A stretch of DNA of 64,000 nt. Origin: Lepidurus packardi (Eukaryota; Arthropoda; Branchiopoda; Notostraca; Triopsidae). The notes beneath the pieces were generated by a model. It worked only from the letters and a program-made list of their open reading frames with translations. It was not told the origin of the DNA and did no database searches. The translations under genes were made by a program, and so were the position numbers. Where the stretch lies: contig JAKZAN010000005.1 in NCBI GenBank assembly GCA_023053545.1, positions 12,400,001 to 12,464,000 of the forward strand, read 5' to 3'. Shown piece after piece: positions 943 to 61,800 of this stretch (the stretch's first letter is position 1; each line of letters starts with the position of its first letter).

Positions 943-3900
943 CTAATCATTTCAAAAAGACCAAAATTATCAATACAATATTAAGAAAAATTCGAAAAAT
1001 CGTCAGAAAAATTATAAAATGCTGCAGAGTACCGAAGAATTTAGGAAGGTAATTAGAACAAGCACACCAACAATGACGCTGAATCAAAAAAATACTTTAG
1101 ACGCCAACAAACGTAATTAGAACTCTAATAATTAGGATTCTAATAATTTCAAAAAGAAAAAAATTATCAATGAAAAATTGAGAAAAATTCTAAAAATCGT
1201 CAGAGAAATTATAAAAATGCTGCAAAGTACCGAAGAAATTTAGAAACGGAATTAGAACAAGCACACCAACAATGACGCTGAATAAAAAAAATACTTTAGA
1301 CGCCAACAAACGTAATTAGAACTCTAATAATTAGAATTCTAATCATTTCAAAAAGACAAAAATTATAAACGAAAAATTGAGAAAAATTCGAAAAATCGTC
1401 AGAAAAATTATAAAATGCTGCAGAGTACCGAAGAATTTAGAAACGGAATTAGAACAAGCACACCAACAATGACGCTGAATAAAAAAAATACTTTAGACGC
1501 CAACAAACGTAATTAGAACTCTAATAATTAGGATTCTAATAATTTCAAAAAGAAAAAAATTATCAATGAAAAATTGAGAAAAATTCTAAAAATCGTCAGA
1601 GAAATTATAAAAATGCTGCAAAGTACCGAAGAAATTTAGAAACGGAATTAGAACAAGCACACCAACAATGACGCTGAATCAAAAAAATACTTTAGACGCC
1701 AACAAACGTAATTAGAACTCTAATAATTAGGATTCTAATAATTTCTAAAAGAAAAAAATCATAAATGAAAGATGGAGAAAAATTCTAAAAATCTTCAGAA
1801 AAATTATAAAATGCTGCAGAGTACCGATGAATTTAGAAACGGAATTAGAACAAGTACACCAACAATGACGCTGAATCAAAAAAAATACTTTAAAACGCCT
1901 ACAAACGTAATTAGAACTCTTGCAGATGAAAGAACGACGCTGAATCAACAGAAATGGAGAAACAATGCGTTGGGCCAACAATGGATCCAAGTTCGGCCAC
2001 GAATTCCGAAATTCCAAGTTCATTACTGAGCGGACAACAATGCGTCTGAATTGACTCTCACGCGACAATGAATCGCCTGAATCTCCATTCAACGCAAACT
2101 CAATAACACGCAACAATGAAGTTCCAAACCCGAACTTGGACCTTGTGGATTCGAGCTTTGCGATCCCAGTGCTTAGAACCCACAACCACAATGCATCCAT
2201 AGTGATTTTAACATAACGAAAACAATTGGGCAGCAACAATGAATCTATCTAGTAACGCAGGAGCCATTCCCAAAGGTTCTTGTAGCAACAATGAAAAACG
2301 CCTGGGAGAATCCGAACCGCATTGTGCAGCAAGAATGAATGCTCCTACGGAAGGATGGCTCCCCAATAGCAACAATGAAACTGCTATTTCGGCAGAAAAT
2401 CAAAGTCTAAGCGACGCCAGGAATGAAAGTTCTAAACCACCAAATTGCCCCACAAATACCACCAAAATAAACTAAAAAAGACTGTACCTTCGAAATACGG
2501 GAGGTTCTTGCGCTAATATATGGAAATCGTTTTCGCTGCACACTTCGCGATCGCGGTGATGGACGGCGCATTTGAAGCTCCGGGAGCGCTTCCCGGTCAT
2601 CTTTGAAGAAGCAAAAAAAAAATCAAAGAATTAGTATTCGTTTCCTCCACAGCTTCTTGCAACGTGCGTAGGGTAATCTGCCACATGACTCAATCAAGCA
2701 AAATGCCACCAAAGATGGTTACGTCTCAGCCAACTCATTAACCACTTCCGTCTGAACCACTTTCGGCCTACATTGGTCGCCGGAACAACAAGGTCTCGGT
2801 CTGTCTTTGATTCCATGATTCAGAAAACCCCCTACGCATGCTAGTGCCTCTCACTGTAGTGTACTGGACGACGTCACACTCGGATTACCCAGGGATGGGT
2901 TTCTCGGGCGGCTCACACTTCCTCTCCTTCATTAAGCAATCAAGGGACAAGTCTGGGACTGTCCCTTTCCTTTTCAATGGGGAATCGCCTGGCCTCGCCT
3001 AGCCTTCATTCTTTCTTTTTTCTTCAGCACATCGGACCCAAAGTACAACCGTAAGAAACGGCCCTATACTCGATACGCTTTGCAGGCGAAGGAGAGGATT
3101 TTTCAATGAACCCAAACCTCGGCCACTACCCGAACAAAACTGGTTTCTGCTCGCTATTACAGTCGGGGCTTTTTACGTATTCCCTTTTTTATTTGGAATT
3201 TTATTTGCTGTGGCATTCTTGGTTTTCTTTGTCAATTTTCTCCTGCTTTTAAGGACAAGATTGAGAACAACAATGAGCGGCTCCTCATTCAAGAAGTCGA
3301 CAAAACACCTTGGCAACAATAGCCCCCCCGAGCTTATTGATTTCTTTCCAACACATCACACCACACTAAGAGTCCCCTCTTCTCTTTTCTTTTAACTCGC
3401 TGCCTTTCTTCGCTTTTCTTTTAACTCGCTGCCTTTTCTGCAGTAATATCGACTTGGAAATACGCGAGAACTCACCCAAGGTTGTCACCAAATTGGAGGA
3501 TGGACCGAATGGAGTTGTTTCAGAAGTCCATGAAGGGTTAAGTTTAACCGAAAATAACTGTTTTTGAAGTTGTTGTCGAGAAAGAACTGGGCACTTTGGG
3601 TGTGAACACTATGGGAACTTGATTTCTTGGAGCAACACTTTGTGAGGAGTAAAAAAGGATAAAAGGAGCACCTCCTGGGCCAACACCTAATTGAGCACAA
3701 TAATAGACATTCCGTACGTTGGTATGTGTACTAGGGAGTGTGCTGTGCAGTGGGTTTTCGTTTAGTCGAGCGCGCCGCACGACAGTCCCAACCTAACTGT
3801 GGCTTAGAAAGCCGTGGCCCACGCAGCTATACATGGGTTGCGGATGCCGGGATGCCAGCATGACCAGGCCAGGCCAGCCCAGCCCAGCCCAGGCCGTCCA

Positions 3901-6900: not shown

Positions 6901-6946
6901 GGTTGAACATGAGACACAGGCTTAGACAGAGATCTTCTCTAAACTC

Positions 6947-6977
<31 letters not shown>

Positions 6978-9900
6978 CCAGGGTCGACAGCCGGTGTTCG
7001 CGACCTGTTCTATGTGTGTCTCCTTACCTCCTTAAATGCTGAAATACTTTTTGTTGTGCTCTGCTGGCGCAGGCACGAAAACCCATCGTCCAGCTGACCC
7101 CCTTGCAACTTAATTAACCACTTATGCCGCAAGAATCTAAGCAAACTCTTTTGTGCGCGCAAGGTAAAAAAATCTCCATAAATATTAAGCTGTAATAATA
7201 ATAGGAATTTACATGTAAATTACGTTGACTCGGACCTCCAAAACCTGCTGCAATTCACACCACAAACTGCCTTATTAAATTGTCACGCTCAATTACGGTA
7301 ACACTTAGGGTTACCTTAATGCTCCCGACATAAGGATCAGCGTACACAGGCGACAAAGAGTCTTTGTTCAAAAATAAAGTGGGTTAAATTAGTAAACCTG
7401 CTTCCGTTCACACTACAAACTGCCGTACGAATGTCACGGTACATTACGGTAACACTTAGGGTTACCATAATGTTAAGACCTAAGTGTACAGTAGACGGTC
7501 TTCAGGCCACAAGGTCTAAGCATAAGGTGAGTTAAACGCACTCGACAAACCGGATTATTGGCCGAAAGTATTTTCGGTAACACGTGGCGTTACCGTAAGT
7601 TAAAGACGGAGAAAGTCTTTTGGGGGACAGTTTAAGGTTAAGTTCACTCGAGTGATATGTGGTTGCAACCTTCAGCCCAGCCAAACCTCCCAAACATTGG
7701 AAGGTAGACTAATTTTCATTGTTGGACCGAAGAGCGGAACCCAACTTCCCTTCCAAACAGGCCCCAGCGAGCTCTTTGGGCTGGCCAGGCATCCGTGGCA
7801 TTGGCGCTGGGTTTACTGTACTGTGTACTGTACTTCTACGGTACGGCTTATTGCACCTGTCCCCTCTCCACATCCGAGCGCGAAAGATGCTATTCACAGG
7901 AAACTCTGCAGGCAATTCCGAGTGAAAAGGGGAACCGCCAGACGATTATGAACGCAGGCTTCTTTACAACAAAAGCGCCCATCAACGTTTTTTTATGAGC
8001 AGGTATGAGTAGATAGGGGAAAGGGAGGACCACCAAGTCCAATTCTAACATTCTAAATATAAAACTAGAATAACGAGGGCGGAATAACGTAACATGGGAA
8101 GTGTACGAAACTGTGGGTGGTTACGAGGTAAAGAAGAAAATACCAGAGGTAGTGGTATCGAGCGGGGGTGGCTACGGCCCACTTGTTTCGATAATGGTCA
8201 GTGGCACAGTACAAAAGGTAAAAACGCAGGTGGGGGTGCCCGCGCGTGGCAAGACCTTTGGCTGGCATAAAGCGTATCGCCCAGGCCAACCAAAACCACG
8301 CGCAGGTGGACGCCTGCTGCCGTCAGTGAGTCCTGTACCGAATCTAACTACTCTTGGGGCTTTTAACAAACGAGTTGTAAAGTTTCGCCCAGGTTTTGGC
8401 CTTCCTGTTCCGGTCATACTCTTTCGGACCATCAATCAAGCCACACGAGTAATTTCCTGAGCTTTTTTTCTTAAGAAGAAGAGCAGAACGACGCCTGCAA
8501 GCGTTAGGATGTGGAGCGCAGCCACGCGACTGTCCTCTACGGCGTCTCGCGAGGGAGTGAGCAAGGCGCCTGCGCTCTTTGCGCGTGACCGATTCGCGCG
8601 ACGCAAGAGGAACAATTCGGGACAAGGTAAGCGTTAAATGCAGTCAGCGTAGCTAATCAGGAAAAGGAGTCTTGTAAAGGTAAAAGGAGACGAAATGATC
8701 CGTACTTTTTTGTTTTATTTTGTGAGCTATAAGACGTCTGAAAGTTGAAAAGCGTGGCGAATGGCCGGTGCGGCTGTGGATGGTTAGCGGCGCGTGCGCC
8801 TCGTTCCAGCTGCCGAAGTTTGCTTACCTTGCGGCCTGCCGCCTTAAATAAAACTACAAATGATGCTCTCTCTGCTCTATATCATAAAAAAGTCCTTCGT
8901 GTCTTGTTCACAGCTTGCTTGGCAGACAAGGAGGGAACAGACCATGGCCAAGCGGACCCCAAACGAATTGGGCGATCCACACCCCTGTCGGAGTGGAGTT
9001 ACTCCATCTCAGAGGATCCCTGGATTAACAGGATTAACAGGATGAACTGGATGAACCCTTTTACCAGTTCCTGAACTAAGAATCCTGAACCAAGAAGGGC
9101 TGCCCTCATAACCAGCGTTTCCTGATGATGAATAATTAATGCGCCTCATTCCCGTCGACGTGGCACGATGGAATGCCAAGGTTCAGCGGACACAAAAGAA
9201 CCAAGTCCCCGGTTGCTACAAGGGTCGCGCGTTGGAAGGGTGAGTACTGCACTCGCTGACTCTCTACCCTTACACAATGCTCCCTCGCTCTTGATAACTA
9301 AACGTGACTTGCAAACTAATTATCCTTACGGGATCATTACGGCGACATTCAATCGGACCGTACCGTAGAGTACGTGACATTTCCCTGTGCTTAACCGTCA
9401 ACCGGATCCCGTATGACGAGTCCTGTGGCGACGCGACAACACTATCGAACCCTTCGACGGGGGTTCCAAACGGACCCAAACAGTCTCGACGCGCTTGGAA
9501 CTTGGAACGCGGACCACTGCAGCGGTCATTAGCAGCTTACTGATGTGTCTGTGCCCCTGCCAAAATACGACCTGCGCCGAAACCAAAAAAGACCCAATTA
9601 CACGGTAATAATTGGCCGGCCGGAAAATTTTTCCTCTTGAAATTAAAGGGGCCCATGATTTGGGTGAAGGAGGGGAGTAGCAGAAACTCTTTAAGCCTGG
9701 TTGCTGACAATCGACGGCTGCGCAGCCCCTTTCTCATTTATCTCGGAAATGGAAATACAAGAAGAGTTGCAAAAGGGGCCTTCCACAAACGTGTCCTTTC
9801 GGGCAACGAAAAGCTCCAATCTGGACGCTGCTGATATATACCTCTTGCTAACCACCAAACCATCAAACCACCGGAGACCTCCCCGGAGTTATGGTACGTC

Positions 9901-12900
9901 GGTGGCTCAAACGTACCTCTCTCGCTCTATACCTCCGTGGTTCTGTCAAGCCTACATTACTGCGTTGACGGTTTAGCAAGATAAATGAGTTTAAGACAGG
10001 TCATCTCAGCTCTATACCAACCAACTCCTCTTCCGTTCGTGCATTTTTTCTTTATTTTTTTTTAACTAACCAACATTCCTCCCGACATTCAAAATTGGAC
10101 CAGCTCGGTGGTCTTCTGTTGGAAGTACACCGCCCAATACAGCCCGCCACAATTGCCATCTTTCAAATTGAGTTTGGGTTTGCCACGAAGGTGTTGTATT
10201 TACTCCGTCATAAGCCATAAGGGAACACCTGGGTCCGAGATTCATTTCCCAGGTGGATGTCCTAAACCGTGTGTCTCGTCTCGTGCCTTCTCATATAGAC
10301 GTGAATGCGTCAAACCCTTACGTCTTAAGATACCCTATAAGAGCCCACCTGCAGCGGATGGTTTTTTGGTGCGTTAAAGAGGAAAAAAAACAGCCCCTGC
10401 AATCAAAGAACATCGACAGACTGGCCGTTCAGTTTCGGGCCCCCTATAAGGGCAAGGTTATTATTGGCTTGGCCGTTTTTCTAATGGCCACTATTTCAAT
10501 GCCAGACTCAACCAGTGGCAGCTGCAATAAAACGTCGACTAGATTGGCCATCCTAATTATGGTAAATCTCATAGATCAGCACACAAGGTTCAAATGGGCT
10601 GTACGCATTTTGGTGAAACGTTGCCAGCCAACAATGAAAATTCACTCTATGGATCCATTGCGCTGTTGCTATGAGAAAAACGCTCTCGTGCTCGCCATTT
10701 TCATTCTTGCCGAGTTCCTTTGCTGTCTAACAAGCGAAAATGGTTTGAACCTAATCAAAGTTTCATTACAGTGTGCGAGTTTCTTTTCGCAGTGAGCTCG
10801 ACAGTACAGTATCATACTGCATTCTAAACAAACTGCAAAAAGTACCCACTAAAATTTTACTAAAAATGGCCTAATTATAGTAAAACTCGTAGATCAGAAC
10901 AAACGTTCTTTTATAGGCGTTCAGAATGTGACGTACGCATTTTGGACTCGAGTAAAGTGAAAAGTTGCCAGCCAACAATGAACTTTCACTCTATGTACTC
11001 TATATATGCATTCATTTCGCTGTTGCTATGAGAAAAACGCTCTCGTGCTCGCCATTTTCATTCTTGCCGAGTTCCTTTGCTGTCTCACAAGCGAAAATGG
11101 TTTGAACCCAATCGAAGTTTCATTACAGTGTGCAAGCTTCTTTTCGCAGTGAGCTCGACAGTACAGTATCATACTGCACTCTAAACAAACCGCAAGAAGT
11201 ACCCACTAAAATTGTACTAAAAATGGGCTAATTATAGTAAAGCTCGTAGATCAGAAACGTTCTTTTATGGGCGTTCAGATTGTGACGTAAGCATTTTGGA
11301 CTCGACTAAAGTGAAACGCTGCCAGCCAATAATGAAAACTTACTATCTGGAGCTATTTCACTGTTGCTATGAAACAAGAACCTTCCCGTGCTCCAATATT
11401 GTCGAGTCCCTTTGGCGTCTTAACGCGTGAAACATGCTTTGAACCCCGTTTGCATTGGAATGTTCGGAAGTTCACTACAGTGTACAAGTTTCTGGTTCCG
11501 TTTCATAGTGAGTTCGACCGATTCGTATAATACTGCACTCTAAAAGTACTGCACTAAATTACGGTACCGTGGTCCTTGTACGTCAACAAAAGAAGTGTAA
11601 TACTGAAATGAAAGTTGTCCTTGACAAGATAAAACCTCATGTCGAGGTAATTACGGAAAATCCGTTATTGTTGCATTCAAAGTAGCCTAACTGTCAACGG
11701 CGGTCGTCCTATTAAGATATTGTAACAAGAGTTACATTTCCTCTTAAGTAACGGGTATTTCTTACAGTCCACTACGCAGTTCTTACTACGCAGTGCAGTA
11801 TAGTATAGTACAGTAAAGAGTACAGTATAGAGTACTGAGTTGCAATAGTCGTCTGGAGCTTTGGCTATTGTTTTTTGCAAAGTTAGGTCATGTTCAAGAC
11901 TACCGCATGTTAATGTTCATGTGAAACGATACCGCGAAAAGGAACTTTACCACATCCATGCTAACTAGTAATTACAACTAATAATTGTAGTAAAAAAAAG
12001 GCTAGTTTATATAAGAGTAAAGGTTCTTTGGGACCGTAGACGGTAGTATGGTCCATATAGTATAGTAAGAGACCACGTCAAGCAGTGTTGGGTTAAGAAA
12101 GACTAGTTGAGACGTCCAGTCAGAACTCCCGAGCCCACCTAGGTGTGGGGCCCACCCAGTGACAAATGTATACACCTGACCCTGTCGGTATATACAAGGA
12201 TCGTTTTTTGTTCCTTCTTCTCTCTTCTTCTTGTTCTTCTTCCAATAGCACTCTGGTCAAAGAGAACCCTCCCTCCTTGGCTCTGGCAACAAGGTGCTCT
12301 AGCATCAAAGTTGAAATGTTGTCCATCACCGACCCCTTTCGCAAAGATGAAGTGGTAAATTATGCTAGGCGATTTCCCCTTGCCGGTCTTTTTTGGCTGG
12401 TCAAGAGTTTTCAGTTCGAGTGAACGACTTCATCAAGCGAACTGAACCCCTTTCACGCTGGTTTCAGTTCAAAGAACAAAACACTACACAACACAACATG
12501 ACATTAACGTTGCATTCATGTGTGAGAGAAAGTTGGCTCAACCTTTACAAACTCAGTCCAGACAACCAGTTTCGTTTCAAGCCCGCTGGCCAAACCTTTT
12601 GTTGTACGCTTCAACAATTGCAATACCAACTCCTTCACACTGAAACGAAATGCGTGTGCTTCACATCGCCAAATTCAAAAAATTCAAGCAACACTGAGCC
12701 TGTCCTTGTTTTCATGCCATTGAATACTCTGTTTTAAACCCAATTGGAACTTCCTTTCTTTACTTTGGGCCATTTACTAGAATCATTCACTAGAATGATC
12801 TAGATGATAGAATGATCTAGAATCTAGATGAATCCAGAACGATCTAGAATCATTCACTAGAATGATCTAGAATCTGAATCTAGATGAATCCAGAACGATC

Positions 12901-15900
12901 TAGAATCATTCACTAGAATCATTCACATTTGGGTCATTTACTAGAATCATTCTTATTATTACTAATACTAATAATACGAATAACAGGCCACGCTGATCTA
13001 TAAATTAAAATAAGAATATTAAAAACAATATTAAAATAACAATATTCAAAAGCCTACATTTGCAATCGAATTTAAAAAATGAGATGATACGATAATAAAA
13101 AATAGATAATAACAGTACGATCAAAAGACGATACTAGTGCACTAAAATGGGTCAATTTGTGAAAGGGTCAGTTAAATTTTGAAAAAAAAGAAAGGAATTG
13201 GGTGAATTATGCGTGTCCTAGATCTTGTGCGTCCAAATACCCGTGAGAAATTGAAATTGGGTACTTAGTTGTCCTTTTGGGTTTCACATCTGATCGTGCG
13301 CTTGTGGAAGGGGAGGGTCTTTCCTAATCTCAAGTCGTTTAGCATTAAGAAAATTTCACAGAGCTTATTGGCCAGCTTTGCATCCACAATTCCCTTCGCG
13401 ATTGACTGACAGGTCGCCATCGCTCAAAATCACCCCTTGATAGCCATAGCTGCTGTATTGCTGTATACTGTGGGCCTTGTCCCCCCCCCCCCCTTCTTTC
13501 TCCAACCTTTTATTATTCTCCTGATCCCTTACACCCAAAGAAAAAGCCCCAGGATGGCCAGACCCATCACCTTCATCACAAAAAAACATTCTTGACCCCA
13601 CAAATACTCTCAATCTCTGACAAGCTAATTGATCCCCCCCCCCCCTTTACTTTACTGGACCTAAAGATTTGTATCAGCATCACTCCCAAAGGTGTTGAAC
13701 CGTTTGCAACTCTCTCTCTCTTTCTTACTGGGAATCTATTTTTCTTTCTCTTTGCTAAGTCTTGCTCTGGTTCTTCGTTTTCGGATTTTCTTTTCAAACT
13801 GCTTAAGCTTTCCAACGCTTACGTATACCAATACCAGGACAAGTATTACAGACGTTGACAGCCCATTCCAGTAAACGTTCCGTAGCTTCGGATATTCCTC
13901 AACCAAACCAAACCCCCCCCTGCTGGGTTACCCTCCAACTCTTAACAGGTAGATGCACACAAATCAAGATTCCATCGGTTTGCTGTACCCAAACTCCCTG
14001 CACCATGCTCCCAAACCATAAATACCAATCTTTTACAACACTGTGCTGTCTTCCTTCTTCGAACCCCATTTTTTTTTTTTTTTTTTTTTAAAGAGTGTAA
14101 GGCTTTTGGCCATGACCAATGTACTCTTTTACTATTATGGCCCCAAAGTCCCAAAGCGCAATTTTAATATCAGGTCGTATAAATAGCACACTATCACCTA
14201 AACTAATATTGGCTAACCTCATCTTTTTAATCCTGATGCAGTCCTCTAGGACATGCCAGAGTTTTATTTTTTTTTTTTTTAAATCTAAAAGCAACCTGTC
14301 TGAACGTCTCATTACACCAGTGACTAAAAGAAAGCAAAACAAGAATGCAGAAATTAGGTAACATAATGATTAAAAATCAGTTAATTCAGAAGGACTTTGA
14401 ATGAGTAAAAGAATCGTTCGGGGTTTTCACTCTTGGCAAATCAATTCCCATCGTTCTGGTTCTAGCGTTCGTTTGGACGAGAGTAGTAGTCGACTTCAAA
14501 GCTTGCTTAAAAGATGGCTTAGCCCAGATTTTGAAGCTTAGCGAGGAGATATAAAGTGCAATTTCAGGAGAAAACCGAGATTTTTGTATGAAAAGTTGGC
14601 ATTGAAACAGTTATAGGCAATTCACTGTAAGTTGAGATCTACTCGCAACTTTCTATTTGCTGTAACTTTAGATCTACACTAAAAATCCGATCTTGAAGCT
14701 AAAGCGCACGAATTGACTCTTCCGTTTGAAGCGTTTAAAACTAATTTCGAGTTATGACGGTGTCCTTTAACGAGCATATGAGAAGTGATGCAATTGCAAC
14801 TCTCGAATTTCACACGTGCAACGAATGGAAGCTAAAATCTGTCAAAAGAACGAATCTGATCTTCTTTCTGATCTAGAAGAAGATCCCCCGCAATGCAAAC
14901 GCTCTTTGCCACGTGGCCAAAAGTTTCGTTTCGTTCTCGTTCTCCAAACTGCGGCTCATTCGAAAAATCCCCCCATGGGACAACAATGAAGTCTCAACGT
15001 ATGTGGTCCAAACTTCCCATCCAAGCCCAATTCACGTATTTTCATTCTTGGGCTGGCATGGAAACCGCAAAGCTTTTTTCAGTTTCATTGTTGGTGTGAA
15101 AAGGCTCCCTATTTGGTTTACCTCCAGTTCAAATTCCATCCGTTTATACACTTCAATAGCCGCGTTCGGTTTGACGAAAGTAGAAGTCGACTTAAAAGCT
15201 TGCTTGAAAGCTGGCTTGAAAGCTGGCTTGAAAGTCAACCCAAGACAAGCTTGTAAGCGTTCGAGAAAGTAAAGTTCGGGTTTCTAAGCGTTTTGTTTAG
15301 CAAGCCGACTTTTAGTTTGGGTCTCAAGTCAGGCCAGTCTATAACGAGTCCTCTTGTGCCCAGACTTGAACTTAACCCCGCCCCCTTGTTTACTACTTCC
15401 TTGGTTTATGACGCACATGCCAAGAGACGGCGTGCTTTCCAAGAATGCGCTACTTTTAGTATATTTTAATGGGTTTCTAATTACTTTCATCGGCAATCGA
15501 AGACATTGATGGTCCCCCAGAACGAAACAATAATTTGCTATTGAAATCCACTCGAAAAGCGAACAATTCGCTTATTGTTTACTTTAAGTTTGAAGTTTAG
15601 ATGTTTGATGTTTGAAGCACCGCCCCACTATTGTAAACTATTGTAAACGTTTTGACTTTTCAAGTCGACTTTCGTAAACTTTCAAAGTTTAGACTCAAAC
15701 TAGGAAGTCAAGAAAGTTGCGCTAGGCCAAGTTTAAGTCAAACATACAAAACGAATGTGGCTTGTGTCCCTTAATCTAGTTTCTAGAATGTTACATTCGA
15801 GGGATAGATCATTTTAGATCATTTCGATCTTTATTTTAGATTTCAGAGAATTTAGAATGACATTTGGTCTGTTTCGATCATTTCACTGTTTCACATTTCC

Positions 15901-18900: not shown

Positions 18901-21900
18901 AAGAATGCCCCGAATGGCGTACAGTACAGAAGGGGGGAGACAAAGAGTCCCGTACCCGTATGGGCTTATACATCTAATATGAATAGCAAAGGACTTCCCA
19001 AAAGTCAAAAGCTTCGCAACTTAATCTGCGGTTCTTAAGCAGAAGCACGAAACCTCGGGTCCATTTTCCATAATCGGCGCAGCATACAAAAACTCAACCA
19101 TCCGGGTTTCCAGAGGGAATGCCACTTCCACTTTTGGGGGGTCCAAGGTTCTGCCAAAAGCTCCCTCTACTTTTTCACCTTTACCTTTACCTCCCACGCC
19201 ATCAAACTGTCAATCTTGCGACCACCAAAAAGAAAGAGAAACGAAAAAAAAAAAAAAAAGGGGAAAATAGGGTCCAAATCAAACGTGCCAGGAACTCCAC
19301 TTCCAATGAGCGAAAAGCAGAACAAAGAAATGACAGACTTCCCCTAAATATCCTGACTAACGATGTTTTAATGACCACGCACACCACGTACTGTACCCCA
19401 GCGATATTCTTTGACACAAACTGAAGTTCAATTAGTGAACCTCTTCTTCTCCGAAAACAAATGAGTTGCTATTTTTTTCAATTTGCTGTTTGAATGTTCT
19501 TGTGTTCTATGTTATGTTTTATTTCTTCTGTTCTGTTCCATTCTCTGTTATGTTCTATGTCTTCTGTTCTATGTCATGTTCTATGTTTTTGCAGAACAAA
19601 TCATGATCATCTGTCAGGACATTTTGGGGTTCTAGTGCCCTATTCCTTCTCTGGAAGCAAATGCGTTTTTTTTTAAAAACTAACTGTTCTTTACCCAAAT
19701 ACAGTAGATGCCGCTTATGGTGATCACTGGTTATTACAACAGGTTCTCCAGTTTCGGAACTCGGAGATAAAAGTGACACTACTGTGTATTATTGTGGCAA
19801 AACGTTCTCCGGGAAAAAGAATGACAAACGGGTGTCACTCCAGTTCAAAATTGGTGTTTGGATTGGAAATGCATTAGGTTAGGATAGCTTAGGTTAGGTT
19901 AGATTAGATTAGATGAAGTTTAATTGAGTGACAAGTTCCTTTAGTGTTACGCTTAGGGGGAAATCCCTTCTAAACTCCCCAGTCAACTAAATGAGCAGGT
20001 TATTCAATTGAGTAACCAGTTCCTGTAATTGACGGAAAATTAGAAGGGATATCGTGTTGAGAACCCTGCCTAAGCGTAGGAGTAGGCTTCAAGGCGTAGT
20101 GTTAGTTGGGTTTAACGTTGGGTTATATAAAAACGGCTGCGAACAAGAAAAGAGTTGACTTAAAGGGAAAAGAGATGTTGCGGCTCATTGAAACTTATGA
20201 CGAGTTCAATTTCAAAGATTGGCCACAAAGGGAAGCGACCGTTAAGTTAAGCATTCCACAGTCATCTCTATCAAAATTGTGGAAAATCGTTACGAACTAA
20301 ACAGTACTGGGTGTAGTGAATCTAGAAAAAGGAAACTTCGGAAAGTGTCAAGAAGTACACGATGCTTTGTTTCATTGCTTTAAACTAGCCTGTTAGTCTC
20401 GCGCGCCGATCAATCGTAGCATTTCAATTTTCATTTATTAGAATCTCCACTTAGTAGAATCACTATTCACTTGACAAACTGTGATCATACTAAGCGGCAT
20501 CTCCTGTAACTGAAACAAAAATAGAAAAAATCTGCCAAGGCTCAAATCTCTTTTATCTCCGAAATCTGAACACTGTACCATCCTCCCCTCTGGACGACAA
20601 CATTTAACCGAGTTAACAATGAATGTACTGGATCTCTGAACAATGAATGTACTGCATCTGAATCTACTGTAGAATCTATTATTCAAAGCCTTCCGCAACA
20701 ATGAAATAATAATACTCTTATGTTCTAAAAGAGTCTCTACCCAATTCTCCAAGTTAACAATGAATGTGCTGCATCTGAATGTACTGTAGAATCTATTATT
20801 CAAAGCCTTCCACAACAATGAAATAATAATTCTCTTATGTTCTAAAAGAGTCTTTACCCAATTTTCCGAGTTAACAATGAATGTGCTGCATCTGAATGTA
20901 CTGTAGAATCTATTATTCAAAGCCTTCCGCAACAATGAAATAATAATTCTCTTATGTTCTAAAAGAGTCTTTACCCAATTTTCCGAGTTAACAATGAATG
21001 TGCTGCATCTGAATGTACTGTAGAATCTATTATTCAAAAGCCTTCCGCAACAATGAAATAATAATACTCTTATGTTCTAAAAGAGTCTCTACCCAATTCT
21101 CCAAGTTAACAATGAATGTGCTGCATCTCGGTGTACTGCATATTTCCGATTTTCGGTTAGGAGAATCTTCGCTTCGTAGAATCAATATTCCATTGACAAA
21201 CGATCAAACGATCACAATAAGCGGCACCTACTGTAGTATTAGGTTCAGAATCACGCATGATCATCTGTCACACTTAAGCGGCTCAGCAAATTGGGGAAAA
21301 ATCAAGCGCACAAAAGTACGAAAACCGACAAGAACTGGCTGAAAGAACAGGATCACAATAAGTTCTTTCTCCCAAAGTTCGTTCCCCCAAAGGATACTGG
21401 GGCCAAGTTGGGAATGGATATCAATAGGGGGAAATAACAAAGTTTTTGGGAGCCGATGCAGCAAGGGAGTGATATTCTCTATATTCTCTACATTCTCTCT
21501 ATTCTATCAAAGCTTTTTAGTTGGTCTAGTCCCATTTTCTATTGTAAGGCGGATTTTGACAATATCAATGCTCTGAATACCCCAGTTGCCGGAGGAATCT
21601 TCTGATGACGGCCCAGCAATGGGGAGAGCCAACAATTCCTCTCTTCCCTGAGCAACCCCTGAACTTCTTTTGTTGCCAAACGTTTTCTCCGTAGTCCAGT
21701 CCCGGTTTTTCTTCCAAACCTGAGCCCCAAGACCTTACAAAAGCCTTCGCTGGCCACGAATACCCCAGGTGCCAAAAGTAAAGCCTCCTGCCAAACTGTT
21801 TCACACCTTGACACTAAAACCAAGTCAATATCGACCATCTCTCTTGATTCTACGTGTCCCAAACCGTTTCCAACTTCCCCAACACCTCGCCAGCCAGGAC

Positions 21901-42476: not shown

Positions 42477-42540
42477 CTTAAGGGCGTCCTCTGGCGGCTG
42501 TTAGTTGCTGGGCACGGCACTGTCGAGATGGGGACGTCTC
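42477..42540 (-). other. Possible 5'-UTR exon of the rhomboid gene
   Basis: On the minus strand a strong acceptor (CTTTCTTCTCCCAG) precedes a 64-nt segment ending in CTTAAG before the donor GTAAAAG. Two of three frames carry stops, so it would be untranslated. No matching acceptor next to exon 1 is obvious, so the link to the rhomboid gene is only inferred from position and strand. Confidence 0.25.
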
Positions 42541-43238
42541 CTGGGAGAAGAAAGCAATAATTCCATTAAAGTACCCCGAAATAGTTCGATCTATTCTTTT
42601 ACTTCCCCCCCCCCCCCCCAAAAATACAAATAAAAAGTGCGATCTGAGTCTGCTGAGACCAACTGAACACGACTTACAACCAAGCCACCCAAGCCACGAC
42701 AGAACTCGATTTTCTTTGTTCTTTTTACTCGCTTTTGTCGCAGAGAAAGTACTACTGGCTTCTCGCAAAACCCAGGCTTTTAGGTGACTATTTTTTTTTT
42801 AATTCTTGTATCTATTTCATTGTTGAAATGGCTGAAGCCGTTCATCTTGTAACCGAGGCGTCTTTTCTTTGTTGGGAGCGGGAAAAACAAAACGACACTG
42901 GCGCAGAGACATCTAACGGTGACCGGCAACAAAGAAACTCATCAGTAGATGGAAATTTGGTGGGATCGTAGCTCGTAGACTACCAGGGGCCACGCTTTAG
43001 ACGCTAGAGACTCGAAAAAGTCGAAGGTAGCGCAATATATTCAACACACCACACCAGCAACAGTGAATTTTCCAACCCTGAAGGTTTGCTTGGCTTGGAA
43101 GTACGAGCAAGGGCGATTTATGGGGTATGCGCCATAATTCAGCATAACTTTATACCATGTTCCGGCCTACGCTATCGCCATGTAACACTTCCAACACCAG
43201 CCAAAGGTTACCTCCATAAATTTCCAGTTACTTGGACC
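42541..43238. other. Spacer upstream of the rhomboid gene
   Basis: May hold the rhomboid promoter, but no TATA or initiator could be assigned. A C run of 14 lies at 42605, and one TTCATTGTTG at 42816. A 78-codon plus frame (42735-42971) is unrecognised. Confidence 0.35.
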
Positions 43239-44310: not shown

Positions 44311-47300
44311 TGCCTGCTAAGTGCATCCATTCCCAGATGTACGTTCTGTTCTATACAATCTACCGAGTGACATAAACGGGTGGGTATTCCCCTGGAGAAA
44401 GGAAAGGGGATCTCAGGTCCCCAACAACCCAGAAGCAGTTAGCTTTTCTAAAGTGCCTGGGGGCATTAATCAGGTTCGGAGTTCAGAAAGGCCAACTTGG
44501 CTCACGAGATTCGACTCGACTAAGGTATTCAACCTTAACAGTTGACTTCCTTCCGGAAGTCGCCCCGAACTTCATGAGGTGCTCTTTACAAAGTTACCAG
44601 ATCTATAATGAAGAAAACTCACCAATATGAACGTCCTATCAGAGCGTTCAAGAGTGGGCAGATTCTCTGCTTTTTCTTTGGTGGAGGAGGAGAAGAGGGG
44701 GGTAAGGGTAAAAGACCCAGCAAGCTGGAGCAATTTCCTCTCTCTTTGCTTTCCGTAATGCATTTAGGGTGAGAAGCACGGGAGGGAATCATAGAACTGT
44801 CGAAAAAAAACTATGAAAAGAACCGTGCATCAATATTCCCCTATCGTTCTTTATATATGCCGTTTGATGAGACGCTCGAGCTGGAGTAAAAAAGGAACGC
44901 GGTACAAGAAAGCGGGTTATCCATACCAGATACCACACGACACGGTTCAAAACCTAGCATTATGCAAATACATACAGTACAAGGAGACAGGGACACGGCT
45001 GGGCAAGCATATCAATACTTTTTATTATTGGGGGGAACCCTTTGTTTCTTGACAGTGTTCCAGCTGGTCGTTCCCCTTTGGGGAATCTTCTGCTGCCTCA
45101 AGATTTCCTTCCAGGTCCTTGCCGTATCGTGCGAAGCCGGGCTGAATGTATTATGCGGGTAGGGAGCTTGGAGGCGAGCGTCATCCAACATGGCTTCCAC
45201 GCGACCACGTGGCGCCTGGCGCTAGCTTCTCGATTTCCCTTCAATATCTTCCATCTCTCATATTACACCCTTCAGAAGGTTCTTAAGGAGGAATGAGAGT
45301 GCAACATGGAGTTCGAAGTGAATGGTAGACTTGAGAACTCAAAGTGTCAAGTCGGTAGCTCGGCAGAAGCCTATTTCTGTCTTTACTGTCTTGACTGTCG
45401 TTCGGGGTCCTTCACGCTCTTGTGTGTTTACTGCGTATGAACTATAATGCACCTCTTCAAGTGAGATAGAGGAATGGAGAGAGAGAAAGGCAAAGGAGGT
45501 AAGGATCGCTCGATGAATTCGTCATCACTGTGAAACTCAGTCAGCTGGCGAAGCTTGACTTGATCATCAACTCTCCCGAAAAGCTGATCTCTGTCTTGTC
45601 ACTCTGTTGTATACTCTGTTGTGAGTTCCGTTCGAATTTTCACGGATTGCGGACGATTTCTTTTCCTTCTTTCTTTATTCCATTTTCGTGTCGTTTCCAA
45701 AGAAACTGTCCGTTCGCTTTTTTCATTTCTGCGCTCCGAATCCAATCCAAAAGCTTCAGTTTTTTGGGGTTCCTTAAGGGGTTTGCTAAGTCTGTATTAG
45801 GGCAACGGAGATTAGGGCTTAGGTACGGGACAAAAACGCTTAAGGAAAAAAAAAGAAGAAAAAGTATTAATGCGTAATGCTGCAGCATTGGAAGAAATGT
45901 CAACCGCCAAATCCTTTCATTTTAAATATTTCTTCCGCGTTTTGGCTCTGCAGTAAGTTGGGTTTATCCCAAATACGACGGGCAATACTTTGTAAGGAAG
46001 TTCAGGGAGTCAAATAAACCTGGTAGAAATGTAGAAATATTCAGAAATGTTCAGCTAACCCTGTGCGCCAGCCTTATTAGTCTTGACAGGTTAATCTAAA
46101 ATGGGTGATGAATGTACTGGGCCGTGATTATGAGCCCTGAAGGTGTATTTCGCTTTTAGGAAAATCCGGTGGGAAGCTTAGCGGGGGGAGGGGTCATGGT
46201 CTACGTGGATCCGGGAGCCTTTTTCTACAAGAGAGTCGACGTTGAAGTCAGTGGCCAGATGACATCGAAGGATGAATCTGGCAACGCTGGGAGACAGACC
46301 AGACAGACCATTATCCTAGTATTTTCCAATATCGAAAACGTTATTCTGCGAGACAGACAAGAGAGGGAATCCGAAGCCGAAACGTACGAAGATTGATCCG
46401 GAGATCGAACGAATCATTTTGTGTTTTTCTGCAGCTTCAAAAAAAAAGACCCAAAGAAGCGTTTCTATGCGATGAAATACCCAGGAAGAAACAGATAAGA
46501 TGAGTAATATCGTCGCGTTAATAACCGAATACATTTCTACTTCCCTATGTACATAATCTGCGGTTTCTCTGTATTGTTTCAACGCTGCACTGACATGGGA
46601 AAAGCTTTCTGCAGGTTCCTGCCCTATCTCCTGCTCTCTTGGGAGAAGAGCAGGAGGAAAGCCGGAAAAAAAACAGACGAAAATTTTACCCCTGATAAAG
46701 CACGTGCTTTGAGGCAAAGGAAGGCTTTCGGGCTCCTCTCATCGAAAAAGGTCCTTTTGCTCTATCGTTTTTTCTCTTATTTTCTCTCTCTTCCCAACGT
46801 TGCATAAAGCTTTTTGCTTCTTCAAATCCCCTCTGCTTACTACACAACGCCACCTATCTCGCCTTCAAGACTTATTGCTACTTGACGCCATTAAAGAATG
46901 GGTCTGGGCATAAAGTGAAGAGGTTCCAAATCCATACACTAGGTTTGTGGGTCGAAGGATGTTAAGGATGCTTGTTAAGGAAGGATGTACTATACGGTAC
47001 AGTTATCACCATGTAACAGTACTGTCGTGCAGCTAATCTAATGACTCCACACAGCAATACACGCTAAAGCAGACTCCAATGAATCTCAATGGCAGGTACA
47101 TGCCCCGGAAAACGGTGTACGGTTCACTTATCCCTTTAGTTACAACAGCTGTTGCCCCACAACGAGCTCAACTGGTTTGTCCCCCTAACGGGAATTAGCA
47201 GTAGTAGTGATACTTTGGATGCCAACATGCCGTAGCACAGTACAGTGTATGATAAAGCACCCTAAACTACAAATAGAGTGTACGCAACTTTCATTGTTGC

Positions 47301-48609: not shown

Positions 48610-50949
48610 TTAGCCATGCTTCTTTGCCATCAGACGAAGAGAAGAACTTGCCAAAGGACCTCAACCAACTTTTCTCCTAACTTCTAACAAAATCCAGGGA
48701 AAGGAAGCTTAAAAAAACATAAGAAAAAAAGAGGAAAACACACTACATGCCAATTTTCCCCTCGCACACACAATAGAACTTGTAAGGTAAAAGAGGATGG
48801 GCGGTCTCCTCCCACCGCAATCAATCTTCGCTTTAACCGCGAATTACTATACATACTAGACGGCATGATTCATTGCTGGTCTCACGCTGCAATATGGTAG
48901 GATTCCCCCGGCACATTTTTTAGATTTATTTTTTGCTTCCAAAGGTAATCAACTTCAACTGGCCCGGTCAATACACTCTTTTCACTTGATTTTTTGCTTT
49001 TTTGGGGGGGGTGTGTACCTGTCTGGACATTTTTCCTACACCGTGCTTTCCGGTACATTGAGAATCCAATAAAGCGAAGCTAACTAACCGTGTCCGCGAG
49101 CAGGAACGGACCAAAGCATGGGAGACAGTACTGAGCAGACCATAGTGCATCAAAGGGAGTTAGGATTACCAGAATGGATACCGCTAAGTGTTCCGTTGCA
49201 GCCCTGCCACTTGCGGTTCCGCTGCTGACGTTGAAAGTAAACACGCAAAGTTGGAACAATCGACTAGGTATCGGTGGGCGTCAGAGTTTAGCTAGGTTAG
49301 GTGATTGTAGACATGTTTACCTGATCATTCGTCTGTTTGTCGTCTGAAGCTGTTAAAGCACGATCACACGTTTCGCTAGTTAGGAGCACGACATAACGGT
49401 GATCCTTTCTGGGGAAGGGGGGCAAACTTGAACATTCGCGGCCACTTGCCGGAAACAAGAGGAACGAAGGACAAGTTTACGACTGATTTTGGGGTTCGCA
49501 CGCACTGGTGGTTCTTAGGCATCGGTGGGAGTTGTCGCCGCACGAAGCGCCTCTACGGTGGCTACTGATTTAGGACGGGTCGAGGGAGGGCAAGTTAAAT
49601 GCAACGCCGAGGTAGAGAGAGCTGTTGTGGTGAAGGTGGCCAGACGAAATGCGCATAGCCCAAAACCCCATGTGACGCCTGGTCTTAGAGGCAAGGCAGG
49701 CGTACAACCACGTCTTTGGCGCCGTTTTGATCCCCTTAGGCTAGGGATGTGTGTATCTGGGTGTGTAGCCCCTGGACAGGACGTAACAGGGGAGGGTGAG
49801 CCAACCAGACGTCTTAACTCAAGTTTGTGTGACACACAGAGATCGATGATCTATCTTTTTTCTATTTGCAGCAGAGTGTGGGGGAAAAACAGAAAAAGAC
49901 ACAGACGGTTCAGTTCACATGGATGCTTGGCAGCCAGGTACGTACAAGGTGCAAGGGACAGGTGATGAAGTGCACCCTGATCTTGGAAACGGGATTGCCT
50001 TCTCAGGTTCTCACGCTAAAAGCTTGTATTAGATGGACCGTTTGGATCTTTGCCTTCCGCTTGCTTATCTGTTAAGCAGAAACAGAGATCCACATACGAG
50101 ATTGTATTGTGGCTGGTTTTCCGGTACGCAAATTGGGTTGAGAAAGTTGGGAAAGGGAGGATTTAGAGAGGAAATAGAAACTCGTTTTTCATTCGGCCCA
50201 GCTCCTGCATAGTTTCATTACTTGGTCGACATAACGGCGTAAATGCTTTACGGCAGCTCCTAAATCTCTTAAGGGAGTTAGGCGATGCAGATGCACCTTG
50301 CGCCTCCTTAGTAAGACGGAGGAGTTACACACCCCCTGCTCGAGGTATGAGTCATAAGCGCAGATATCCCAGAGCATTGACGAGGCGCGAAAGAACAAGA
50401 AAAGGAGGGTGGAGGGTGAGACCCTACCAATGTCAAAATCGATATTGTGCACTCTGAGAGGGGGGTTTCGCTTCTCGTTAGAACGGAGCCTTCTCTAGTT
50501 GCAAAAGAGGAGGGCTCGATGCTATTTGTCTAATTTCTGGAATTAAAAGCCGAAGTGGCTCTAACCCGGCTACGGTTTTTGTTGAGGCACCATGGGCACA
50601 ACAATGAAACCCTTGAGACTTTAGCAGGAATTAATCTAGCTTACTTCACGAATTCTATATCTTCAAGTGACGTACCTGCCTTTCTTATAGCGTTTCAATT
50701 GTATCTCAGCCAGGGAAATTTCACTATACACAAATAAAAACAACATGATGACTTTTTGTTTAGCGCGAATTCCCATAAACAAGCCATCAGCGCCGCCCGT
50801 AAGCAATGAATAGTTAGAAGCAACGGACGCTTGATAGCGCTGGAGTGCTAAAGCACAGGCCAAGGGAACTGCCCTCCCCCTGGCTTGTCCAACCTAGCTG
50901 CTCCCTAACCAAAAAGAGATACTAGTAAGACCGGGCTTCTCAGCTCGCA
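48610..50949. other. Intergenic spacer between unassigned frame and RpS9
   Basis: A GC-rich block at 49500-49830 is open on both strands (146 codons plus, 106 minus) but without recognised motifs. A minus-strand 87-codon frame at 50189-50452 is also unassigned. Exact CAACAATGAA lies at 50599. Confidence 0.35.
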
Positions 50950-50988: not shown

Positions 50989-51454
50989 GTAAGCTGGGGT
51001 GACGATTCTTTTCGTAATTTTCCTAAACTTACAAATTGTTGTAAAAGTGCGTTGTTTGTTTCTAACTTTACAAAGAATCATCCAAACTATCAAGTGCCCT
51101 AGTTTTTATTGTCGGATGGTTAATTTTAAGACGGATACTTGAAGATTAAACTTGGACCGCATTGTGGGTGACGCAGCGAAAACGTGTTAAAATTGTGTTA
51201 GAATGCGGTTATTACCCTTGCTACAGAATTTATTTAATTTCATTGTTGGAATTAGATCACCATTGCGAGGGAAAAGCAAAATCCATGTTCTAATCTCAAC
51301 TGAATTACACATGTTCAGTTTGGTTCGTGCCATGGACACATTTCTAGTTACACAACCGTATAGAATCCTTAAATTACATCTATGACTAGCGTTATTAGTT
51401 CAGTTATCGTCCTATTAAAGCTGTTAGTAATCGAGTTTTCCTTTTGACAGATAA

Positions 51455-52773
<1,319 letters not shown>

Positions 52774-52814
52774 ACATGGACTTGTTTCACCATTGGTACA
52801 AATAATACAATGGA

Positions 52815-52820
52815 ATTAAA
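52815..52820 (+). terminator. Probable RpS9 polyadenylation signal ATTAAA
   Basis: ATTAAA lies 42 nt after the RpS9 stop codon. A short 3'-UTR is usual for ribosomal-protein mRNAs. No other canonical signal is close. Confidence 0.45.
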
Positions 52821-54889: not shown

Positions 54890-55530
54890 GACTTAAAAGT
54901 TTATAGTAGTTTAGCTAGTTTGTAAAGTTTATAGTAGTTTAGATAGTTTGTAAAGTTTATAGTAGTTTAGATAGTTTGCAAAGTTTATAGTAGTTTAAAT
55001 AGTTTGCAAAGTTTATGGTAGTTTAGATAGTTTGTAAAGTTTATAGTAGTTTAGATAGTTTGTAAAGTTTATAATAGTTTAGACAGTTTGTAAAGTTTAT
55101 AGTAGTTTAGATAGTTTGTAAAGTTTATAGTAGTTTAGACAGTTTGTAAAGTTTATAGTAGTTTAGACAGTTTGTAAAGTTTATAGTAGTTTAGATAGTT
55201 TGCAAAGTTTATAGTAGTTTAGATAGTTTGTAAAGTTTAAGGTAGTTTAGATAGTTTGTAAAGTTTATAGTAGTTTAGATAGTTTGTAAAGTTTATAGTA
55301 GTTTAGATAGTTTGTAAAGTTTATATTAGTTTAGATAGTTTGTAAAGTTTATAGTAGTTTAGCTAGTTTGTAAAGTTTATAGTAGTTTAGATAGTTTGTA
55401 AAGTTTATAGTAGTTTAGCTAGTTTTTAAAGTTTATATTAGTTTAGATAGTTTGTAAAGTTTATAGTAGTTTAGATAGTTTGTAAAGTTTATAGTAGTTT
55501 AGATAGTTTGTAAAGTTTATATTAGTTCCT
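54890..55530. repeat. 28-bp minisatellite, about 22 copies
   Basis: The consensus unit joins GTTTATAGTAGTTTAGATAG and TTTGTAAA, 28 bp. Variants have GCTAG or GACAG in place of GATAG, and CAAA in place of TAAA. There are no spacers, so it is not a CRISPR. It ends near 55525. Confidence 0.96.
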
Positions 55531-56437: not shown

Positions 56438-56880
56438 TTTACAAGCTCTATTCTCTTTTTTCGAAACAAACTATTCTTTCCAAGTACAAGTACAATGACT
56501 TGGCACAAATCAGCAATAGTGTTATTTTTCTAGTTAATCGGTTCCTTTACTTACTACTTTACTTTACTTTACCTTACTTACTACTTTACTTTACGACGTT
56601 ACTTTACTTTACTTTACTACGTTACTTTACTTTACTTTACTTTTTTTATTTACTTATTATTTACTTATATTTACTTATATTTACTTATTACTTTACTTAT
56701 ATTTACTTATTACTTTACTTATTACTTTATTACGTTACTTTACTTACTACTTTACTTATTACTTTACTTTACAAGCTCTATTCTCTTTTTCGAAACAAAC
56801 TATTCTTTCCAAGTACAAGGTACAATGACTTGGCACAAATCAGTGTAATAGGGTTCTTTTTCTAGTTAATCGGTTGTTTT
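56438..56880. repeat. TTACTTTAC-type array flanked by a ~104-bp direct repeat
   Basis: A TTACTTTACTTTAC/TTACTTAT array at about 56547-56770 is bounded on both sides by the same ~104-bp segment, from ACAAGCTCTATTCTCTTTTT to TTTTCTAGTTAATCGGTT (about 56440 and 56771 onward). The long plus frame here (145 codons) is low-complexity Tyr/Leu/Thr and is an artefact. Confidence 0.9.
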
Positions 56881-58478: not shown

Positions 58479-58852
58479 ATGACGCAAAGCGATGAAGCAG
58501 AGCAAACGGCCGTTTGGCAACAATTACTCCCGACCAGCAATTCCGATCCGACCCTAGTGAGCAGCAGTACATCACCTCACCACGTCAACTTCCAAGACGA
58601 CGTCGGCCTACCCCATGAAGCCCACCATCATAGTCTGGGCAATGGCGCGTACCTGAACGGGAAACCGAGGAGTTCCAGTTTCTCCCGTTCGGTCGTCAAG
58701 TTTTTGCCCTTCCGAAAAAAGAGCCATGAGATGAACGGCGACGTCGAGGCCAATAGCAACACTAATCTGACCGGCAGCGTTATGGAGAAAATTGAAAAGG
58801 AAAAGAGCAAACGAAGCGAATCTGAGCCACCTCCGACTAGCCCCTTGCTCAA
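58479..58852 (+). CDS. Irk: Kir exon 1 (variable N-terminus)
   Basis: From ATG 58479 to the donor GTACGT, phase 2. Ser/His/Lys-rich cytosolic region without known domain; SFSRSVVKFLPFRKK could be a membrane-near basic helix. Confidence 0.88.
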
Positions 58853-61800
58853 GTACGTTCAATCAACGTTTTTTCATTCAAGTTGTTTTCAAACCGTTAG
58901 AATGCCTCGTGGTTCGTTTGAGCTTTCTCGTATCATGTTATGCCGGTATCGGGTTCCAAATTTTTAGGCGTAAGGCCATTTGCGTTGCGCAAGGAAGTTT
59001 AGACAAAAAACATGGCGTCGTACACAATGCAGGTTTGCATGGGTACGAATACGACCTGCTCCTGATGAGCCATAGCAATTCAAAACTTTGCCACACGCGT
59101 GATGAGCTCTCTACACGACACCCAAGTCGCTGCAGATAGTGTTGTTTTGAGTCCGAACTGTGAGATAAAAGAGACAACGGAAAGCACAAAAATGGCAAGT
59201 GGAGACTTGTAATTGTGTCAAGTTAAGGGCCGGATTATCCAATCCATAATTGAGGTTTAGGTGAAGGTCCTTTGGGGCGCTCAGAAGCGCGGTATACTGT
59301 CGCCAGTAGTCTTATTTTCACTTTCAATTAGGTACACCTACCGCCCCAGGGCTTGCGTGACCGTACCTGAAGTGATTAGGCTTCGCAAGAGTTCAATCGG
59401 GTCTTAAAGACTCCATTGAGTCGTTTGGGTGCCCGCAAAGACAGGGATGTCATTTTGGGATAACTTGCCTCGAGTTAAAATTGTTTTTTGTCGTGTTGGA
59501 GAGCGTTACTGTTTGGTGAGAGCGTTGCCTGTTCTATATTATGGCTCACGTACTTGTGGCTTGCCTTGTGGAGTCCGTGGACCTGGTCCTGCATGAAAAT
59601 CATAGCTCAAACTGGAGCCAGCTCCTAAAACTCGTGACTTTTTATTTTGTAGTTTTTGTTTAGTAAGGGAGGAGATTTGTGTCATGATATTTTGAAGGAT
59701 TTTGAAGATTCATGTGGTTGTTGTTGTTGTGTTTCAGATATCGTGTTCCACGCTTTGGTTCGCGCCGCATGCGCAAGCGCGTGGTCTTCAAAAATGGCGA
59801 CTGCAATGTGCTCCAAACGAATGTGGCCAAACTTCGACGCCGTTATTTACAGGACTTGTTTACGACCATGGTTGACATCCAGTGGCGATGGACGCTGCTC
59901 ATTTTCACCCTGAGCTTTATTCTCAGTTGGATGAGCTTTGCAGTCATCTGGTGGCTCATTGCCTTCACACATGGCGACTTGGAACTGGACCACTTGCCAG
60001 GTATGTTTTTTTTGTCGTTCCATTTCGCGAGTCAAGTGGGATCAAGTATCACACAAGGGTTGAACCCCTTCTCCTTTTCCTTTCCTAAAAATGAGAACAC
60101 TTTCCTCCCAACTCCCCCCCCCTCCCCCTCCCAGGCTGTATCTGATAGTCATCTAAAATGAGAACCATAGCCTAGGCCTGTGGCTACGCGTACCGTTACC
60201 GTTGTATGTTACGGTTTGCGCCCGTCAACTTACAGTATAGATGCCGCAAGTTAAGAATAACATGACACTCTATGTGTCATATGGTTGGAAAACGTTCGCC
60301 GGGGAAAGACTGACAAACGGGTGTCACTCGGGTTGAAAATTGGTAGTTGGATTGAAAATGCATTATGTTAAGTTAGGATAGGTTAGAATAGGCCAGGTTA
60401 GATTGTGTTAGCTTAGGTTATTTAGATCAACAATGAAAATTGTTCCAACTTGCATTTTCTTTCCCTCCACTAGCTGAAAAAAAGAAAAATTCATTGTTCA
60501 AAGATGACACACGTGTGTCATCTTTGGCTTGGAAATGCATTATGTAAAATTAGGATAGGTTAGAATAAGCCAGGTTAGATTGTGTTAGCTTAGGTTATTT
60601 AGATCAACAATGAGAATTGTTCCAACTTGCATTTTCTTTCACTCTACTAGCTGAAAAAAAGAAAAATTCATTATTCAAAGATGACACGCTTGTGTCACCT
60701 TTGAACCATGAGTGTTGAACATTGAACAATTGTGTCATTTTTGATAACGGGATCAGTACATTCGTTTGTCACTCGATCCTGAGAACGTGTTGCATGACAT
60801 GAAGACAAAGGGGCCTCGCTTTTGGATATTTTGATATTGGGTTAACCGTATTGCAGCAGAGAACTTTTCTTTTCCTGCATATAAAGAGCTAAGGCTTGAT
60901 AAACAGAAAAATAGTCTATTTTGGAGTTCACTTTTCCTTGAAATATGTATGCCATGGAACACGCAAAGGTTGTGAAACTCTGGTTTCTGATGTAATCTTT
61001 CAATCCCCTATATTATTTCCCAGCTTTGCGTCCTTGTGATGTCATTGCGCACTTTCCTGATGTGGTAACCTTGTTTTTTTTAAAAATAACTAGGAAAATG
61101 ATGTTATGAACTGAGAACCTAGGATATTCTGAGCTTAAATTGAAGTTTACCTTGCTGGCATTTTTTTTTATTTTATTTGTAAGGCGTAGTCTTTCGCCTG
61201 TTGCCTGTCTCACATTTTTACAAAAAATAAGTTGTCAAATCACCTAAAGAACTAAACCCATCGAACTAGAGCAGTGGTATAATAACCACTCATGGGAGGG
61301 TTTATTCTATTGAGAGTACTGCCAACTAACAAAATAAGGATTACAATTGGTCAGACTGAATAAGATGCAAGGAAAGCCGAAGACAAGAATATGCACAAGT
61401 TTCAAGGATCGTAGATTATAACTGCCTTGCTGGCATTAGTAAGGAGTTCTCTATACCATGAAATGCCACCTTCACCTGGATAGTTGGAATGGAATCTCTA
61501 ACCAAGGAATGTAACCTCTAACGAAGGTCAAGATCATGAACTTTAAGCAGCTACTTCTAGTTTTGGTCCACTGGTTTCTTATAGGGTTAAGAATGCTCTA
61601 GTGTCTTTGTTTCAGGTTTCTAAAAGCTATAGTTGTCGTGGTAAGTATTTAGCAACCAAATCCATCAGGTCAAGACGTTTAAGCATATCCTGCGGGTACC
61701 AACCACAGTATAAAGGTACCGACCACAGTATAAAGGTACCGACCACAGTATAAAGGTACCGACCACAGTATAAAGGTATAAAGAAAACCTCTATACTGTG

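Follow-up and report, generated by a model that had tools for sequence, protein, structure and literature searches.

Several described systems involve short, recurrent DNA words. The Ruby motif of nematode piRNA genes has many dispersed, domain-enriched copies; the meiotic pairing-centre motifs of Caenorhabditis elegans, which are chromosome-specific, are bound by the zinc-finger proteins HIM-8 and ZIM; and the CENP-B box has as its essential bases NTTCGNNNNANNCGGGN (TTCG...CGGG). Here, we describe a ten-base word, CAACAATGAA, that recurs throughout a 64,000-nucleotide stretch of the genome of the notostracan Lepidurus packardi (GenBank assembly GCA_023053545.1, contig JAKZAN010000005.1, positions 12,400,001 to 12,464,000 of the forward strand; hereafter, the window), which corresponds to C4:12400001-12464000 of the 108.6-Mb assembly. 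A word noticed in one window turns out to recur in clusters throughout the genome and to favour mirror-image pairs. On balance, its copies probably represent sites, often clustered, for a putative DNA-binding protein that can form head-to-head dimers.

Two known classes of binding site come close to the word in sequence. Within it, AACAATG is a perfect SOX word, and SOX sites tolerate A/T but not G in their CAAWG core. The DM-domain (doublesex/DMRT) consensus, GCAACAATGTTGC, has CAACA-N-TG in common with the word and carries a G before CAACA and TGT in its right half. A search of the DMRT literature did not return this consensus in the portions of text retrieved, and the titles and opening abstract lines returned by searches on the word itself and on Daphnia or cladoceran motifs held no description of the motif.

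Abundance of the word in the window

The window contains 27 exact copies of CAACAATGAA, 19 on the plus strand and eight on the minus strand, all at the positions and on the strands listed in an initial annotation made from the letters alone. Its claim that the word is hugely over-represented was borne out: dinucleotide-shuffled versions of the window held 0.27 copies on average and two at most (100 shuffles), and an order-3 Markov model predicts 0.44, which rules out chance or base composition as the source of the excess. The nine-base core, AACAATGAA, occurs 43 times against 2.0 expected, and most single-base variants lie near expectation. With 422 copies per Mb, against 34 per Mb in the assembly, the window is a dense spot.

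Of the 27 copies, 11 sit in tandem arrays with a period of at least 10, which together occupy 18.3% of the window, in keeping with the annotation's remark that some copies ride in arrays; the other 16 lie outside them, which excludes a tandem repeat as the only explanation. Among those 16, the pairs 10629/10973, 14981/23836 and 15084/23939 are copied segments (flank identity 79-99%), and counting such segments once leaves 13 contexts, four of them forming one cluster at 2111-2379. This is close to the 15 or so unrelated contexts originally proposed; outside the arrays the word did not fall to its expected count, nor did the contexts prove to be fragments of one repeat family, in a check that left the genome-wide copy number of the solitary flanks outside its scope.

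A coding repeat was rejected: the intervals between the four copies at 2111-2370 (123, 52 and 84 nt) do not keep them all in one frame, and long open frames are not in excess. A search of the window against Rfam gave no match at gathering score.

Abundance and flanks across the genome

Across the assembly, the word occurs 3704 times in exact form and the reversed word 310 times; the order-3 expectations, scaled from a 200-kb sample, are ~418 and 422 respectively (the latter above the 310 observed), and the genome-wide excess of CAACAATGAA is ~9-12-fold. The sample itself—20 evenly spaced 10-kb stretches of contig C1—holds seven copies against 0.77 expected under the order-3 model, so the word is not confined to the window. 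Other sequences are also strongly over-represented, namely poly-C/G runs in both window and sample and TTAGG-like words such as AGGTTAGGTT and GGTTAAGTTA in the sample. Allowing up to one mismatch gave 21244 matches against 9999 for the control, with an excess at exactly one mismatch that is model-dependent (17540 observed, 12455 expected at order 3, 9689 for the reversed control).

Flanking sequences were compared in two genome subsamples picked by an arbitrary triplet 15 nt downstream of the word, covering six large contigs (C1-C6, 77.2 Mb) and four small ones. Distinct 15-nt flanks were found at 46 of 50 and 50 of 52 places, with three and zero places in the reversed controls. Overlapping flanks were merged, which is conservative for context counts; grouping by one shared 11-mer was over-inclusive and was excluded from the counts, and duplicate flanks, like the duplicate spacers of the paired sites below, were removed by eye. 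A single dispersed repeat or transposable element family is ruled out by these distinct flanks and by two single-copy clusters described below.

In the subsamples, the word is present on all six large contigs, and four of the 97 retained places lie on unplaced contigs, which make up 29% of bases. End enrichment is modest (40 of 93 places against 27.9 expected), with a P value that is too small since the sites are clustered. As a side observation, the assembly has 41 COX1 matches, many of them nuclear fragments with TGA codons of the mitochondrial type (several at C4:0.79-1.54 Mb), together with intact standard-code COX1 genes on three small unplaced contigs, so that some such contigs may be bacterial. 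One nuclear COX1 copy (L062) looks branchiopod-like and is probably of crustacean type. The first 100 listed places of the variant CAACAGTGAA include 29 within 0.6 Mb of a single contig (C1:10.92-11.53 Mb), which suggests megabase-scale domains dense in the motif.

The word has sharp edges: outside it, leaving aside the sampling triplet, 78 non-overlapping sites showed strong preferences at +11 (A/T) and +13 (T). Of 400 flank positions, 1.2 would be expected to reach p<0.003; those that did were two at the motif edge, three imposed by the sampling triplet, and +22 and +104, each of them isolated. No flank 5-mer or 6-mer stood clearly above word fragments, the sampling triplet and small counts, and TGACG, which a few spacers had hinted at as a partner, proved not to be general. 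Open frames of at least 300 nt contained 13 of 59 CAACAATGAA sites (22%) against 31% of 602 ATGAA-matched controls, these being raw proportions.

Geometry of paired sites

Divergent pairs within 30 nt, with the word's reverse complement TTCATTGTTG ahead of CAACAATGAA, occur at 33 places; the spacer is exactly 1 nt at 20 of these and absent at five, and the control gave zero. The excess of 1-nt spacers over other spacings has a Poisson P of ~1e-30, or 6e-27 with one tandem triplet counted once. Convergent pairs within the same distance number eight, with spacers of 9 to 30 nt and none below 9 nt (control, 0). Direct pairs amount to 110 in all, and the 100 listed have 64 distinct spacers, 41 of 19-30 nt (control, 3). 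A fixed divergent spacing of 1 nt is what a symmetric protein dimer would give, and tandem duplication is not expected to produce it.

Clustering of sites and variants

Among the first 99 gaps between neighbouring copies on C1, 22 are shorter than 300 bp, against 1.2 expected at random, although a number of the short gaps seem to belong to plain arrays, such as an 86-bp series at C1:1782521. Within 240 bp of 59 focal copies—which include one related set (L001, L002, L003 and L005) and L037/L038—there are 32 one-mismatch relatives against ~4.2 expected. The commonest relatives near sites, window included, are CAAGAATGAA, CAACACTGAA, TAACAATGAA, CAACAACGAA and CAACAGTGAA; position 6 is degenerate, with G and C forms enriched near exact sites. 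When close pairs (at most 400 bp apart; 26 pairs from 17 loci outside the window) were compared by gapped alignment, 15 showed no flank similarity, and an ungapped comparison found only one related pair.

Both clusters tested, one in the window and one at C2:2876374, are single-copy in the genome, in a search at E<=0.001 that skips very common words. The window cluster (1976..2427, plus strand) combines four exact copies, at 2111, 2234, 2286 and 2370, with seven relatives carrying one or two mismatches: CAACAATGGA (1976), CAGTAATGAA (2019, minus strand), CAACAATGCG (2035), CGACAATGAA (2063), CCACAATGCA, CAAGAATGAA (2330) and CAGGAATGAA (2418).

Elsewhere, a 33-bp tandem unit, CAACAATGAATTCTCGGATGTCGAGCGTGACGT, lies on seven contigs among the matches listed (C1:7476360, C1:10739644, C1:11722126, C4:903662, C5:11448823, C6:148458, C16:874085, C30:757513 and C49:146666) and, at 33 nt, might encode an 11-residue repeat within a mobile element.

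Other features of the window

Two exact copies on the plus strand, at 10629 and 10973 (10629..10982), belong to a diverged ~345-bp direct duplication, whose third unit, at ~11327, has CAATAATGAA. The convergent pair 14981 (plus) and 15084 (minus) occupies 14981..15093, with a minus-strand CAAGAATGAA in between, and has a second copy at 23836..23948. The surrounding region is a direct segmental duplication (14.5-15.5 kb and 23.35-24.35 kb of the window, 8.9 kb apart, at least 975 aligned columns at ~96% identity), which bears both the convergent pair and a CTTGAAAGCTGG array.

In the plus-strand tandem array at 20615..21116, a 117-bp unit carries the core AACAATGAA twice, in two different contexts, and the array holds four full 10-mers. 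A related plus-strand array with 142/118-bp units, at 37167..37659, also holds four full 10-mers, with core spacings of 24, 58 and 60 bp. On the minus strand, a 170-bp array at 38582..38892 has one CAACAATGAA per unit (38641 and 38811) and a dispersed relative at L010:8271. A 177-bp duplication pairs an exact copy at 60428 (plus) with an inverted core, TTCATTGTT, at 60490 (60428..60498); its second unit reads CAACAATGAG at 60605, so one duplicated copy has lost the word.

Lone exact copies lie at 7715..7724 (minus), 35174..35183 (plus), 42816..42825 (minus), 47290..47299 (minus), 50599..50608 (plus) and 51239..51248 (minus), the last of them ~0.2-0.3 kb upstream of the first detected coding exon of RpS9, where coding matches start at ~51.5 kb. 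Large arrays with no exact motif occupy 26823-28889, 33227-34532, 40476-41518 and 54896-55527 (273/142-, 184-, 346- and 28-bp units), and the window is unusually rich in minisatellites, which account for 10-28% of the sequence in the first six 10-kb pieces, compared with 0-12% in the 20 sampled stretches of C1.

Discussion

The word is over-represented and clustered, its flanks mostly differ, its divergent pairs form an orientation- and spacing-specific palindrome, it tolerates certain variants, and two of its clusters are single-copy. From this pattern we infer a protein that reads the word, selective upkeep of its sites and whatever role—regulatory, insulating or chromosome-organising—they may have. 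The extended consensus CAACA-V-TGAA-W, with CAACAATGAAA as its best form, would be the recognition word of this putative sequence-specific protein, available at thousands of sites. The protein would read it as a single site or in loose homotypic clusters, each with 2 to ~10 copies spread across 100-500 bp, and might occupy TTCATTGTTG-N-CAACAATGAA as a dimer arranged head to head. Its predicted sites would lie mostly outside long open frames and be denser in certain domains, this window included. Part of the clusters arose by local tandem duplication, which turned some of them into minisatellites. The initial annotation had offered a protein-binding site as one possibility; given the mostly different flanks, the clusters and the spacing-specific palindrome, that remains the best-supported general reading, shorn of its SOX version (see below).

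Several results nevertheless weigh against a dimer-forming protein. In the 200-kb sample, CAACAATGAA ranks 26th by observed/expected ratio among 10-mers found in at least five stretches, with simple words, TTAGG-like words and roughly a dozen more ahead of it, so outside the dense domains several words are enriched and this is one among them. Paralogues outside arrays keep the word in five of nine cases, where the remaining 10-column stretches of these alignments would predict ~4.8; two related arrays have it intact in eight of eight copies, but these are one family. The case for selection therefore comes from geometry and clustering, not from conservation. Gapped alignment found four of the 26 close pairs to be clearly related (p<0.01) and seven borderline (p 0.01-0.03), against ~1.5 of 26 expected below p 0.03 with a null set that includes a few related loci, so diverged tandem duplication produced some of the clustering; at this alignment sensitivity, another part is unexplained by duplication. 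Direct pairs also exceed a 2:1:1 ratio (64 distinct spacers against eight convergent pairs and eight divergent pairs beyond spacers 0-1), which indicates that duplication contributes here too, partly as plain minisatellites such as the 33-bp unit.

The main rival explanation holds that the copies are what is left of numerous old minisatellites or of short duplications, with the word as the part common to several repeat families and without present function. We regard it as possible but doubtful. It draws on the related and borderline pairs, on the surplus of direct over inverted pairs and on the near-neutral loss of the word from non-array paralogues, and arrays of many periods do carry the word (117, 142, 170 and 177 bp in the window, 30 and 33 bp elsewhere). 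It has more difficulty with the 15 close pairs lacking flank similarity, with the mostly distinct flanks of the subsamples and with the two single-copy clusters, and duplication would not be expected to fix a 1-nt divergent spacing. A related suggestion in the initial annotation, that the word is a seed picked up by many repeats, holds to the extent that several minisatellites carry it and some clusters are diverged duplications, but fails to cover the 16 window copies outside arrays or either of the clusters tested.

Improbable, in our view, is an origin as transposase-binding subterminal or terminal repeats, with the copies as scattered remnants of a large and diverse class of DNA transposons. 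Such elements would be compatible with several short motifs lying in either orientation over a few hundred bp, with inverted pairs (14981/15084, for example) and with members that are truly dispersed repeats (L001, L002, L003 and L005, and the 33-bp array). Two clusters are nonetheless single-copy under the search described above, convergent pairs within 30 nt are few—though longer elements would escape this range—and no target-site duplication was found by eye at 14981-15093 or 60428-60498.

Less probable still is a known factor class, either SOX or DM-domain. The SOX proposal, put forward in the initial annotation on the strength of AACAATG, fares poorly on variants: genome-wide, CAACAGTGAA, which breaks the SOX core, is enriched 4.5-fold over its reversed control (1024 against 228), whereas CAACAAAGAA, with a good SOX core, is enriched only 1.7-fold (1064 against 619). 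The divergent form of the preferred palindrome also misfits a SOX site. The degenerate position 6 and the frame of CAACA, a variable base and TG resemble a DM half-site, but the right half reads TGAA rather than TGT, and G occupies position -1 in 20 of 80 sites, which is no preference. Least probable of all is a role as the promoter signal of numerous tiny transcription units, comparable to the Ruby motif (PMC4015492, PMC3597512) in nematode piRNA genes: the thousands of dispersed, domain-enriched copies with mostly different flanks, mainly outside long open frames, would allow it, but the 400 flank positions of 78 sites (a modest sample) gave no clear second signal at a fixed distance, and palindromic pairs are not expected.

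Returning to the favoured reading of sites for a dimer-forming protein, if such a protein does read the word, the palindrome is a ready bait for it and the dense domains are places to look for a role at chromosome scale. A bolder version, which we consider rather unlikely, would make the word the address of a putative lineage-specific chromosome-organising protein that acts in domains of heterochromatin or pairing, in insulation or in the marking of germline loci. Such a protein would read single sites and head-to-head dimers clustered on all six large contigs, as an arthropod counterpart in kind of the nematode pairing-centre and Ruby-motif systems.

Set beside known systems, the word resembles SOX/SRY sites in containing AACAATG but differs in its tolerated variants and pairing geometry. 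Like the CENP-B box in satellites, it is a short word found in unrelated tandem repeats, and TTC.TTG is common to both; it is no CENP-B box, as the essential TTCG...CGGG bases are absent from its reverse complement, TTCATTGTTG, and 16 of the 27 window copies lie outside arrays. It resembles homotypic clusters of transcription-factor or architectural-protein sites in being a short, graded word that is found in either orientation, several times within a few hundred bp and with mostly different flanks; it differs in that the full 10-mer is over-represented ~9-12-fold genome-wide. The HIM-8/ZIM pairing-centre motifs are likewise short words that are bound by proteins and recur in clusters within chromosome domains, but they are chromosome-specific, whereas CAACAATGAA occurs on all six large contigs. 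Finally, the Ruby motif of C. elegans piRNA genes matches it in having many dispersed, domain-enriched copies; it is a different word, no partner at a fixed distance was found for CAACAATGAA, and CAACAATGAA forms palindromic pairs and minisatellites.

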